DNA of 64,000 nt from Pseudomonas chlororaphis subsp. aurantiaca (GTDB lineage: Bacteria; Pseudomonadota; Gammaproteobacteria; Pseudomonadales; Pseudomonadaceae). Both the position numbers and the translations under genes were made by a program. A model generated the notes under the pieces. It was not told the origin of the DNA, made no database searches, and saw only the letters and a list, made by a program, of their open reading frames with translations. The stretch is from positions 1,116,001 through 1,180,000 of the forward strand of contig NZ_CP059162.1 of assembly GCF_013466605.1 (NCBI RefSeq), written 5' to 3'. This document shows, piece after piece, positions 20,669 through 33,396 of this stretch (position 1 is the stretch's first letter; every line of letters starts with the position of its first letter).

Positions 20669-22324
20669 TCAGAAGCGCCAGATCACGTCGACAAAGGCGC
20701 GGTGCATGTACGAGTCGACGTTCTTGCCATAGGCATCGCCCGGCTTGAACACGCCGCCACGAAAGCGCACCAGCGCCGAAGGCTCGTCGATCGACTGGCT
20801 GAGCGCGGCCGGCAGCAGGCCTTGCTTGAAGTACTTGGTGACCACCAGATCCACTTCCTGGCCGAGGTCTTTCTCGCCATCGCGCAGCGGCAGGGTCGAG
20901 CTGGAGAGCAGGGCGCCGGTGGCGTCGTCGTAGTTGTTTTCCACGGCGTTGATACCGTTGCTGCCCACCGGCTTGTTGCCGTCCACGCGCCAGAACTTGT
21001 GGTAGATCAGGCTGGCGTCGTATTCGTCGGCGAGCATCCAGGAACCGAACAGGGTCGCGGTCTGCATGTTGTTCATTTCGCCGCGGAAGGCTTCGCCGAA
21101 GCGGTGCACGCGCGAGCGGGTCCCGGTGTAGTTCGAGCGGTTGCTTTCCAGGCCGTTCTGTTCGTAGTCGCCGCTGGCGCGGGCGTAGGCCGCGCCGACC
21201 TGCCATTTCGGGTCCAGGCGCAGGCGCACGCCGAGGTCGGTGGCCCAGCCGTCGAGGTTCTCGCCGGTCTTGGCCTGGGCCGGGCGGGTGCCGTCGGCGT
21301 TCAGCGCGTTGACCTTGTCGCGGTCGCCGCTCATGCCGGTGACGCTCGCCCAGTAGTTGACGGTGTTTCCGTTTTTCAAGCTGTAGGCGTCGCTGTTGGC
21401 TTCCAGGCCGAGCCAGGTCAGGTCGCCGTTCTGGCGCTTGTCCAGGGAGTCGGTGGCTTCGCCCGGTACCGGGTAGTCGAGCTTGCCGTCGTCGTGGCTG
21501 TGGTGGGCGCGGACGCCGACCCAATGCCCCGGGGTCCACTGGTAAGCCACATCGCCATAGACGTGCAGGCGATCCTTGTCTTCCGGCGCCAGCTCCTTGA
21601 GGTCGGTGCGGTACTCGCTGAAGCGTTCGGCGATGCCGACGTTGGCGCGCAGCAGGGTGGTGTCGAAGGTCCAGTTCAGGGCTTCGATGTTGGTGTCGCG
21701 CCATTGGCCGTCGTCGTTGCGCAGGCGCTGGCGACCGAATTTCAACTGCTCGCCCGGGTAGGGGGTGAGGCCGCTGTAGCCGATCCAGAACTCGCGCATC
21801 GCCAGGTAGTTCTTCTTGCTCTTGCGGTCGCTGTTGTTGCTGCTTTCGGTGCTGGCGCCGTCGGACTGCTGCAGGGTGTCGGTCTCGATGATGTCGGTGG
21901 AGGTCACCGCCTGGCCCATGGCGTAGGCGCTCCAGTTGCCGCTTTCGCCGTAGACCCAGGGGCGCAGGTCGAGGCCGACGCCGTTGACGTCGCCGCCGCC
22001 CAGGGTGCCGAGGTCACGGTCGTCTTCGGACTGGCCGGTGATCTTCACGTCCAGGCCGAAGTTCTTGCTCTCGGTGATGGCCGCCAGTGTCGGGGTGGAC
22101 CAGACCAGGGCAAAACCCAGGGCCATACCCAGCTTCGACAGGCTGAACAGTTTTCCCGTAGCCGCTGCCGCAGGCTGCGATCGGCTGCGCAGCAGCCGCA
22201 AAACCTGCGCACGCGGTGCCACTGACAGATCTCGGTCGCCTGGTTGGCGAGCGCTGCGCGCTCGATCGCAGCCTGCGGCAGCGGCTACAGAGGTGGCGGC
22301 GTTGTTGAGTGGAGTGAACTTCAT
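20669..22324 (-). CDS. algE: AlgE, alginate export porin, with REPIN-extended N-terminus
   Basis: Outer-membrane 18-strand beta-barrel that exports alginate. The mature part is typical ([14 protein letters not shown]..., [21 protein letters not shown]-terminal [11 protein letters not shown] ending in Phe). The ATG overlaps the algK stop as ATGA. After [12 protein letters not shown] a 132-base REPIN is read in frame (residues about 13-56, Ala/Arg-rich, including one Cys), and only then comes a normal signal peptide core, [16 protein letters not shown], cleaved near residue 81. Removing 22158-22289 leaves a continuous frame starting [18 protein letters not shown]. Full length is 551 residues. 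An internal ATG at the hydrophobic core lacks a good ribosome site and charged residues, so the long form is probably translated. Confidence 0.95.
22158..22289. mobile_element. REPIN inserted in frame in the algE signal-peptide region
   Basis: A 132-base element bounded by inverted arms GTAGCCGCTGCCGCAGGCTG (from 22158) and CAGCCTGCGGCAGCGGCTAC (to 22288), with a spacer of about 80 bases. The arms match the intergenic copy at 32720-32850 almost exactly. Its length is a multiple of three and it has no stop in the algE frame, so the gene stays open. REPINs are non-autonomous and moved by RAYT transposases; none is present in this window. Confidence 0.9.
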
Positions 22325-23763
22325 AGGGATTCCTCACCGTCTTCTTCCTGCAGCGCGTGCAGTTCCAACGTGTTCTGGCTCAAGGCACCACGTACGGCCT
22401 GCTCCTGTTGCAGCAGGCGTTGGGCCTCGGCGCGTTGGCCTGGCGGCAGTTGGGCTTCGAGTTGTTGCGCAAGCTCGTTGGCTTGCGGGGTGTCCTGGGT
22501 CTTGGCCAGCTGGCTGAAGACATAGGCGTTGAGCGGGTCGGGCTTGGTGCCCTTGCCCTGGGAGAACAGTTGGGCAATGGCGAAATCGGCGCTGTTCTGG
22601 CCGTTGCGCGCGGCGGTCAGCAGGTGGTCCAGGGCCTTTTGCGGATAGACCTGGCCCAGGTAGCCACGGCGGTAGATCTGGCCGAGGTAGTAGTCGGCGG
22701 CGACTTCCTTGCCCTGGGCCTTCTTGAAGTGTTCTTCGGCGACCTTGGCGTCGGCCGGGACCATCTTGCCTTCGTAGTAGAGCTTGCCCAGCAGCAGTTC
22801 GGCGCGGGGCTGGTCGGCGGCGCGACCGTTGTCCAGGTACTGCATCATCTTGTCGACGTCGCCCAGTTCGGGGAAGTCGTAGAGCAGTTGCGCCAGGGTG
22901 ACCCAGGAGGCCGGGTAGCCGGGAGCGATCGGCTCCAGCAGCGCCTGCGCGGTTTTTTCGTCGGTCTTGCCCAGGCTGGCGTCGCCCAGCACCCGGGCCA
23001 CGCTGTCGACCCGTTGCGCGCTGATGACGCCGCGGGCGTGCCCGGCCTGCAGCTGTTTCAGTAGCTCGGCCTGTTGTTCCGGCTGGCCGCGCTTCTGGTA
23101 GACAGTGGCCAGTTCGACGTAGCAGATATCGGTGACGTTCAGCGCTGCCTTGCAGACGGTTTCCACCTCGGCCAGGTGCTGGTCGTAGGTGCCCTGGGTG
23201 CGGTACAGCAGCACCTGGGCCAGGCCGGCTTCCGGGTAGCCGGCGCTGCGCCATTGGCTGATCTGCTGCTGGGCGTCGACCTTGGGGAAGCTCTGCGGAT
23301 ATTGCAGGTAGAGCATCGCCAGCGGGATCAGGGTGTTGCCTTCACCGTTGGCGAAAGCCTTTTTCAGCAGGCCTTCGGCTTCGTGATGCTCGGCCTCGGT
23401 GGAGCCGGGCTTGGCCACCAACAGGCGACCCAGGCGCGCCTGGGCTCGTGGCGAGGTGTCGGCCGCGGCGCGGTAGGTCGCCTCGGCTTGCTTGATCTTC
23501 GCCGGGTCGCGGGTTTCCATCTGGATATCGGCCAGGCCGACCTGGGCTTCGCTGTAACCCAGGTCCGCCAGTCGCCGGTAGTTCTGCTCCGCGAGCACGG
23601 TGTCGCCGCGCTTCAGGGCTTCGTTGGCCAGGCGCTGGTCGGGCAGGCCGGCGCAACCGGCCAGGCTCACGGCCAGAGCCAGCGAGCACAGGGCCAGTAC
23701 GCGGCGACCCTGGGATGGGGCGCGAGCGCGGCGCGTGTCGAGGGGAAGGCTAGTCACAGGCAT
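22321..23763 (-). CDS. algK: AlgK, periplasmic TPR/Sel1 lipoprotein
   Basis: Scaffold lipoprotein of 480 residues that helps place AlgE in the outer membrane and protects the alginate path. The lipobox SLAGC gives lipidated Cys37, after an unusually long Arg-rich n-region. The rest is helical Sel1/TPR-like repeats (for example [21 protein letters not shown] and [13 protein letters not shown]). The stop overlaps the algE ATG by four bases, and the start is 9 bases from the alg44 stop. Confidence 0.95.
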
Positions 23764-31265: not shown

Positions 31266-32660
31266 ATGGATGACCACGGACGTAGCCCTTCCTCCAACCA
31301 GCCAATCCTTTATGTACTCGATACCAATGTATTGATTCACGATCCAAACGCCCTGCTGAACTTCGAAGAACACCATGTGGCGATCCCGATGATCGTCCTG
31401 GAGGAACTCGACAAGCTCAAGAGCGGCCATCACAGCGTTGCAGCGGAATGCCGCCAGGCCATTCGCCTGATCGACAAGACCCTGGGTGAGGCTTCGCCGG
31501 AAGATGTCGAGCTGGGTGTGCCTATTCAGCGTGGCAAGAGCGGCCCCAAAGGCCTGCTGTCGATCCTCATGAGCAAACGCTCGGAGCCCAACAGCCTGCT
31601 GCCGGAAAACCTCAACGACAACATCATCATCAACCAGTTGATCGACCTGCACGCGCGCAACAAGGAGCTGCGCGTGGTGCTGGTGACCAAAGACATCAAC
31701 ATGCGTCTCAAGGCGCGCGCCTGCGGGATCGCCGCCGAGGACTACAGCACCGACCAGCTGGTCGACGACGTGGCCTTGCTGCCCAACGGCTTCCACAACA
31801 TGACCGGCTCCTTCTGGGACCGCGTGAGCAAGGTGGAAACCCGCCAGGACCACGGCCGCACCTGGCACCAGGTGCAACTCACCGACAACCTGCCGGCGGT
31901 GCACATCAACGAGTTCATCATCGACGAACAGGGTTTCGTCGGCTGGATCAAGGAGATTCGCGCCGATGTGCTGCTGATCCTCGACCTGCATCAGGAACCC
32001 TTGTTGCACCAGGAAGCCTGGGGCCTGAAACCGCGCGACATCTATCAAGGCCTGGCGCTGTTCGCCCTGCTCGATCCGGATATCCATCTGGTCAACCTGT
32101 CCGGGGCTGCCGGTTCGGGCAAGACCATCCTGGCCCTGGCCGCGGCCATCGAGCAGACCATGGTCAGCAAGCGTTATCGGCGCATCATCGCCACCCGCAG
32201 CGTGCAGGGGCTGGACCAGGAGATCGGCTTCCTGCCGGGCACCGAAGCGGAAAAGATGGAGCCCTGGCTCGGCGCCATCACCGACAACCTCGAAGCCCTG
32301 CACATGGATGACGAAAGCACCCATGGCAGCGTCGACTACATCCTCAGCAAGGTGCCGCTGCAGTTCAAATCCCTCAACTACATCCGTGGCCGCAGCTTCC
32401 AGCAGAGCCTGATCCTGATCGACGAATGCCAGAACCTCACCCCGCACCAGATGAAAACCATCATCACCCGTGCCGGCGCCGGTTCCAAAGTGGTGTGCCT
32501 GGGCAACCTGGCGCAGATCGATACCCCTTACCTGTCCGCGACCAGCTCCGGGCTGACCTACCTGACTGAACGCTTCAAGGACTTCCCCAACGGGGTGCAC
32601 ATCACCCTGCAGGGGGTTCCCCGCTCGATCCTGGCCGAATACGCCGAATCCCATCTGTAA
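31266..32660 (+). CDS. PhoH-family ATPase with N-terminal PIN domain (YlaK type)
   Basis: A 464-residue cytoplasmic protein. The PIN ribonuclease domain comes first (LDTNVLIHDPNALLNF, acidic residues at D19, E47 and later Asp), and the PhoH ATPase domain second, with Walker A GAAGSGKT near 280-287 and Walker B LIDECQN near 385. PIN-PhoH fusions act as RNA-cleaving helicases in actinobacteria; the role in Pseudomonas is not settled. A strong terminator follows. Confidence 0.93.
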   Translation: MDDHGRSPSSNQPILYVLDTNVLIHDPNALLNFEEHHVAIPMIVLEELDKLKSGHHSVAAECRQAIRLIDKTLGEASPEDVELGVPIQRGKSGPKGLLSILMSKRSEPNSLLPENLNDNIIINQLIDLHARNKELRVVLVTKDINMRLKARACGIAAEDYSTDQLVDDVALLPNGFHNMTGSFWDRVSKVETRQDHGRTWHQVQLTDNLPAVHINEFIIDEQGFVGWIKEIRADVLLILDLHQEPLLHQEAWGLKPRDIYQGLALFALLDPDIHLVNLSGAAGSGKTILALAAAIEQTMVSKRYRRIIATRSVQGLDQEIGFLPGTEAEKMEPWLGAITDNLEALHMDDESTHGSVDYILSKVPLQFKSLNYIRGRSFQQSLILIDECQNLTPHQMKTIITRAGAGSKVVCLGNLAQIDTPYLSATSSGLTYLTERFKDFPNGVHITLQGVPRSILAEYAESHL

Positions 32661-32719: not shown

Positions 32720-32850
32720 TGTAGCCGCTGCCGCAGGCTGCGATCGGCTGCGCAGCAGACGCAACGGCCCTATAGAGTTTCGTCAGGAAAACCTGTGTGT
32801 ATGGATGGCGGCCGCTACGCGACCGATCGCAGCCTGCGGCAGCGGCCACA
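32720..32850. repeat. REPIN between the PhoH gene and moaC
   Basis: Inverted arms GTAGCCGCTGCCGCAGGCTG and CGCAGCCTGCGGCAGCGG flank a spacer of about 80 bases. The arms are nearly the same as those of the copy inside algE, which makes this the best reference copy for that insertion. Confidence 0.9.
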
Positions 32851-32922
32851 GGGGGCATAATCAGGCGTGCGGAAAATTGACCCTCGGGTTTACAATCGCC
32901 TTTCCTGATCAGGAGTAAGGCT

Positions 32923-33396
32923 GTGCTGACTCATCTCGATTCCCAAGGTCGTGCCAATATGGTCGACGTCACCGACAAAGCCGTGACGTCCCGCGAAGCG
33001 ACGGCCGAAGCCCGGGTGCGCATGCTCCCGCAAACCCTGCAAATGATCGTCAGCGGCGGTCACCCCAAGGGCGATGTGTTCGCCGTGGCGCGCATCGCCG
33101 GCATCCAGGCGGCGAAAAAGACCAGCGATCTGATCCCCCTGTGCCATCCGCTGATGCTCACCAGCGTCAAGGTCGAACTCAGCGCCGAAGGCGAGGACAG
33201 CGTGCGCATCGTTGCCTGCTGCAAGCTGGCCGGGCAGACCGGGGTGGAAATGGAAGCCCTGACCGCCGCCAGTGTCGCCGCCCTGACTATCTACGACATG
33301 TGTAAGGCCGTGGACCGCGGCATGACCATCGAAGGCGTGCGCCTGCTGGAGAAACTGGGTGGCAAGAGCGGCCATTACCTGGCGGGTGAGCAATGA
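32923..33396 (+). CDS. moaC: MoaC, cyclic pyranopterin monophosphate synthase
   Basis: Makes cyclic pyranopterin monophosphate with MoaA in molybdenum-cofactor synthesis. 157 residues. Conserved stretches are [34 protein letters not shown] and the [26 protein letters not shown] region with catalytic Lys and Asp. The start is GTG 32923 with AGGAG 7 bases upstream. The stop overlaps moaD by four bases. Confidence 0.96.

Follow-up and report, generated by a model that had tools for sequence, protein, structure and literature searches.

REPINs are selfish hairpin elements moved by RAYT transposases, which are associated with the element and not part of it. How can such an element lie within the reading frame of a conserved gene, is it translated there, and what keeps it in place? 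These questions are raised by algE, the gene of the alginate export porin, in a window of 64,000 nucleotides from Pseudomonas chlororaphis subsp. aurantiaca (NZ_CP059162.1, positions 1,116,001 to 1,180,000); all coordinates below refer to this whole stretch. Most REPs are reported to be extragenic (PMC3116915, PMC3390384): in SBW25, the top 16-mers have 1,067 copies, 14 of which overlap a gene (PMC3116915).

A REPIN in the reading frame of algE

Three solved AlgE sequences match the window protein at E≤1e-186, aligning from residue 65 or 86 of its 551 residues. The upstream gene is algK, with a score of 814 bits for NF038194 against a cut-off of 700. NCBIfam returned no family match for the window AlgE.

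The element begins exactly at codon 13 of algE and, together with one further base, makes up 44 stop-free codons, which precede those of the signal peptide's hydrophobic core. Its 52-base arms are 81% complementary and its predicted fold reaches −99.4 kcal/mol. At its borders, CT|GTAG...CTAC, it has a REPIN-type foot: in the 33 other REPINs of the genome, GTAG is preceded by CT at 46 of 66 ends. At least 39 other places in the 6.95 Mb genome match it at E≤1e-3 (by our own grouping, with 40 of 357 candidates scored). It thus combines an inverted REP pair forming a hairpin, the GTAG foot and dispersed copies, and qualifies as a REPIN.

Table 1 Features of the algE locus in the window.
Feature	Position	Strand	Remarks
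algE, alginate export porin	20669..22324	-	551 residues including the REPIN-encoded stretch; matched by solved AlgE; homologues with PF13372
REPIN, GTAG...CTAC	22158..22288	-	131 bases; with base 22157, codons 13-56 of algE
REPIN arm, 3' on the algE strand	22158..22209		52 bases; 81% complementary to the other arm
REPIN arm, 5' on the algE strand	22237..22288		52 bases; 81% complementary to the other arm
algE start codon	22322..22324	-	ATGA overlap with the algK stop; arrangement common to the relatives read
Shine-Dalgarno-like GAGGA	22331..22335	-	inside algK, upstream of algE; also before the start in the carriers and relatives examined
Signal peptide core, residues 62-81 (20 residues)	22082..22141	-	placed by motif
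algK, gene upstream of algE	22321..23763	-	NF038194; stop overlaps the algE start

The original prediction of an in-frame REPIN that adds 44 codons before the signal core is borne out by the family of the element and by its surroundings: of the 40 REPIN sites examined, that of algE alone combines an open frame with positive coding scores on its two flanks, in a test that is blind to a REPIN breaking a gene. The predicted borders, 132 bases at 22158-22289, were one base off the codon frame; the REPIN itself ends at 22288. An open frame taken by itself is not unusual: the 36 sites that have a full-length match, that of algE among them, give 216 frames, of which 89 lack a stop.

The arms match a second copy in the window at 32720-32851, where a likeness had been foreseen for 32720-32850. 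This copy sits between the co-directional ORFs 31266-32660 and 32923-33396. At 937-955 lies a half site that resembles a REP but for two mismatches; it may be nothing, since the pattern occurs six times in the window against 3.2 expected by chance.

Like the REPINs described in the P. fluorescens group, the algE element is built of inverted REPs with GTAG ends, forms a hairpin, measures about 130 bases and has dozens of copies (PMC3116915, PMC3390384). Unlike them, nearly all of which are reported as extragenic, it lies within a conserved gene.

We found no match for the RAYT families PF01797 or NF047646 in the window's genome (G000), despite its at least 40 REPIN sites, a result that lends no support to current REPIN mobility there. 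Strain Pf0-1 is likewise reported to be without a RAYT (PMC3390384). PF01797 detected a RAYT in six of nine genomes searched and NF047646 in three of six; genomes G061 and G405 resemble G000 in that none was found, while the other genomes searched, G400-G402 among them, have one or more.

Distribution among relatives

We read algE in 140 loci (L009-L148), some of which represent one genome sampled twice. In all of them (137 and three more) an uninterrupted algE follows from a Shine-Dalgarno-led ATG, and 107 mature algE sequences are distinct. One collection contributed 80 loci, the best 80 of 352 relatives. In a second, 361 of 398 genomes matched and 30 loci were read, giving seven full elements, one truncated element, one scar and 21 loci with none; from a third, 30 of 275 loci were fetched.

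Among the 86 loci with full flanks, 69 have a short signal, for example one of 25 residues; eight carry an element of type A (the truncated one included), four carry type B, two have scars and three are other. Given the best-80-of-352 sampling, these 12 carriers in 86 are not a prevalence.

Type A (VAAAAGC...QPAAAATG) is found in the window, L039 (NFIX28), L154, L040 (P. chlororaphis PCL1601), L152, L041 (P. protegens FD6) and L043 (LD120). Type B (VAAAEGC...TQASPAAT) stems from another REP family at nearly the same place of algE, in four further lineages: L042 (PS645), L045 (P. mandelii RIT-562), L078 (TH41) and L044 (P. brassicacearum 48H11). L153 holds a truncated type-A element, in frame. 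In the scars only an end of the element is left, again in frame: VAAAAG in L046 and L054, AAAATG in the database protein P0003. The L046 scar may be the result of a deletion bounded by a pair of CAGGC repeats, the first in the arm, the second in the right flank. L155 is element-free where its neighbours have type A. In L154, the left arm has gained nine bases in frame near codon 23 (AEPWRG for AAG).

The full element is present in all four loci of the P. chlororaphis clade, and P0001, which alone was read of a 103-member database cluster that it represents, carries it as well. The possibility, raised beforehand, that every relative has the extension thus holds for the nearest ones and fails beyond them, where element-free relatives exist as anticipated. 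A private or recent insertion is ruled out by the occurrence of the element in relatives, and an assembly error by the occupied site in independent genomes, complete ones included.

The protein database did not return the type-B alleles' own long proteins, nor further type-B alleles. An exact pattern survey, positive in 3 of 398 genomes, was too strict, since it missed carriers known from locus reading. A DNA search of 115 genomes for closer relatives gave other REPIN copies only and no new algE carrier.

Type-B-like copies are abundant in the four type-B genomes, giving 79-105 match rows per genome (both strands counted). For the window element, with rows as listed, there are 100-135 in G400-G403 and 76 in G293, which has the truncated element; 42-62 in the type-B genomes, where the best matches other than algE are weaker; 25 in the element-free G405 and 10 in the scar genome G404.

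Six P. chlororaphis ORFs of about 320-350 residues (P0004, P0097, P0099, P0103, P0104 and P0109) also contain translated REPINs. All six were read; two of them, P0004 and P0109, are named AlgE in databases, yet are without PF13372. These two have only repeat-encoded residues in common with AlgE, so that the label was apparently carried over in error by way of the repeat.

History of the insertion

We built a backbone tree of the 86 loci from the flanks without algE. The eight type-A alleles and both scars fall in one clade (local support 0.90), which also holds five element-free loci (L087, L155, L052, L053 and L057). Type A and the scars need four changes on this tree. These would fit a single gain followed by three losses, in L087, in the L053 group and in L155, and several gains may also be read from it; as all seven full type-A elements end six codons before the residues LSK, one insertion is favoured. 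The tree is consistent with an insertion that dates back to the base of the chlororaphis/protegens clade. With this, and with the 103-member cluster, the idea of an early case of a REP becoming protein-coding finds no support.

Type B stands at four separate tips of the tree. Three of its four elements end five codons before LSK, that of L044 ten.

Recombination is seen to move the signal segment too, judging from L041: it differs from L152 by 1-2% in algK, and from the element-free L053 by about 2% in mature algE and 22% in the signal. The alginate locus of this strain, P. protegens FD6, is a mosaic, with algK like that of L152, mature algE like that of L053 and a switch near the signal peptide.

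Frame and selection

The 11 full elements measure 83, 95, 104, 104, 131 (six times) and 140 bases; the boundaries of L043, with its decayed right end, and of the truncated L153 were set by hand. All 11 lengths are 2 modulo 3, and all 11 elements are stop-free and read in one phase (GTA GCx). The 33 other REPINs of the genome have lengths of 0, 1 and 2 modulo 3 in 7, 13 and 13 cases, and 34 of their 198 orientation-by-phase combinations are in frame and open. The phase in which GTAG yields a TAG stop is closed to all 33. We attach no P value to this frame rule, because the 11 alleles are related by descent and not independent.

Between the window and L039, mature AlgE has 37 synonymous and 15 nonsynonymous codon changes in 452, which indicates that it is under purifying selection. 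In the element codons the window has three synonymous and two nonsynonymous changes relative to L039, and three of each relative to L154. This would suggest little constraint on the encoded residues, with changes too few to judge by.

Signal peptide of the carriers

A putative Sec signal, with a hydrophobic core and an A-X-A-like end, was located by motif; these features are conserved among nine carriers. We expect signal peptidase to cleave after residue 81, from the motif placement and from the solved mature chain 4afk, which aligns from residue 86 and so lies wholly behind the REPIN. With this motif-based position, the window signal has 81 residues, 11 of them K or R, in line with the long Arg-containing n-region of the original prediction. 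Across the 11 full-element alleles the signal spans 57-90 residues, against 25 in the short type. An AlphaFold model from nine rows was uninformative (mean pLDDT 26).

Weighing the explanations

Does translation run through the element? It might instead be an untranslated leader, with algE starting at an internal ATG or GTG behind it and the upstream ATG unused, as has been proposed for most 5'-end REPs in ORFs of P. putida, C. koseri and S. maltophilia (PMC3733652). Most carriers do have start codons inside or after the element, and in 9 of the 11 alleles with a full element the LGMALG/LGVALG position holds an ATG or GTG. In L078 and L044, however, this position reads ATC, and between the end of the element and the cleavage site L078 lacks any ATG, GTG or TTG, with two TTG inside the element. 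With a leader the frame would be under no pressure, yet none of the length variants seen departs from it; the signal would be left without a positive n-region; and the upstream ATG with its GAGGA is kept in the carriers, in a start context common to element-free relatives. The absence of a start behind the element in L078 and the frame rule favour the upstream start, and a start at the internal Met alone, which would have spoken against the original prediction, is quite improbable. The element is most likely translated, as far as the alleles tell. Might it then be kept for a function, the hairpin or the Arg-rich n-region tuning AlgE translation, its export or the algK/algE ratio? Two REP families in one stretch of one gene, vertical persistence across species and the very stable predicted hairpin of the window would be in keeping with this. 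Against it, the element is lost, shortened or scarred in several close relatives, its encoded residues appear little constrained, and other alleles have far less stable predicted hairpins (L045 −43.5, L043 −55.0 kcal/mol). Nor is there a clear effect on predicted access to the start: the Shine-Dalgarno stretch has an unpaired probability of 0.18-0.44 in the 11 full-element alleles and 0.29-0.49 in seven short-signal alleles (means about 0.32 and 0.35), although the three lowest values (0.18-0.27) belong to carriers. A start blocked by the hairpin was rejected on these grounds, and we give little credence to the functional reading as a whole.

The origin of type B is less settled. Its elements could be no new insertions: an old element-bearing segment may have spread by recombination and later been overwritten by the resident REPIN family, which we regard as possible, if the less likely course. 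In keeping with it, L045 differs from the element-free L074 by 38% in the signal segment and by 5-8% on either side; the signal cores of L042 and L045 have a mean nucleotide identity of 71-72% to the type-A clade against 61-63% to the short type, with that of L078 intermediate; and all elements share one phase. In the type-A allele L040, the loop fits that of the window better reversed (26 against 14) though the flanks match the window's; this loop fits no better than those of other genomic REPINs (26 against 26), so an inversion in place is indistinguishable from re-insertion. The nearest other copy to the L044 element in its genome is 83% identical, which speaks against recent conversion. 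The L044 core is closer to the short type than to the type-A clade (72% against 68%) and its spacing differs, so that at least two insertions are likely and the L044 element is probably one of its own. We also considered that the AlgE signal n-region is a recurrent landing and rewriting site, which different REP families invade time and again, and where elements are flipped or overwritten in place by host REPINs and retained because a long basic n-region encoded by a hairpin alters the making or export of AlgE. This we hold to be unlikely; if true, a stretch of protein would be subject to constant rewriting by a population of mobile elements, within the limits of a frame rule.

Discussion

The explanation that we prefer, with good though not full confidence, is that of a selfish REPIN sitting, as a tolerated guest, in the n-region of a signal peptide that is cleaved off, with selection on the downstream porin keeping its frame open. 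In an ancestor of the P. chlororaphis/protegens clade, the REPIN would have entered algE in frame, close to the 5' end of the gene. Translation would begin at the conserved ATG, which is coupled to the stop of algK, and continue through the element, giving the long signal peptide of the carriers in place of one of about 25 residues. Signal peptidase would cut after the usual Ala, leaving the mature porin unchanged. Afterwards the REPIN may drift or shrink, give way to another or disappear, provided that each length change is a multiple of three and brings in no stop, because algE behind it is under purifying selection. In other lineages a second REP family would have entered the same region.

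This preference is based on the 11 of 11 elements in frame against 34 of 198 combinations elsewhere, the in-frame scars, L078 and the shared start context; on purifying selection in mature AlgE and a REPIN that ends before the solved mature chain; and on type A and the scars in one clade, the uniform spacing of the full type-A elements to LSK and the element-free L155 nearby. Against it stand the apparently low constraint on the encoded residues, the internal start codons, the shared ancestry of the alleles, the long type-B proteins missing from the protein-database results, the RAYT not found in the window's genome, and the three losses needed by a single type-A origin, in place of which several gains may be read.

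In-frame REPs have been published before. Intragenic GTAG/CGTC REPs, dimers included, are reported to encode amino acids in ORFs, many near the N-terminus (PMC3733652). That work suspects the N-terminal REPs of P. putida and others to be untranslated, and its main text mentions no alginate gene. The algE case differs in that relatives test the frame and display turnover. We found no report of a REPIN in algE in the open-access literature searched.

The classic in-frame repeats of protein genes are the Rickettsia palindromic elements (PMC10969869). Like them, the algE element is a palindromic repeat, in frame and open in a conserved protein gene. They are described in many unrelated genes of one genome, whereas here one of 40 sites is concerned and the encoded part is expected to be cleaved off; the algE insertion acts in the manner of theirs, but we do not class it as such an element. 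In autotransporters, an N-terminal extension makes the signal sequence far longer than usual (PMC2805444). In AlgE, by comparison, a mobile element makes up the extension, and it varies from one species to another.

The alg cluster is present in P. chlororaphis PCL1606, in which an alg8 mutant is reported to form normal flow-cell biofilm (PMC7926942). Alginate may therefore matter little there, which would ease tolerance of the insertion.

Altogether, the REPIN that lies in frame within the AlgE signal n-region is real, old and recurrent, and in all likelihood a passenger that is tolerated as long as it obeys a frame rule. The algE alleles offer a test set for whether 5'-end REPs of bacterial ORFs are translated or are mis-annotated leaders: one gene in many species, with element-free neighbours, frame-keeping length changes and, in L078, an allele with no start behind the element. 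They suggest that the n-regions of cleaved signal peptides can be a safe harbour for selfish DNA inside a conserved gene.
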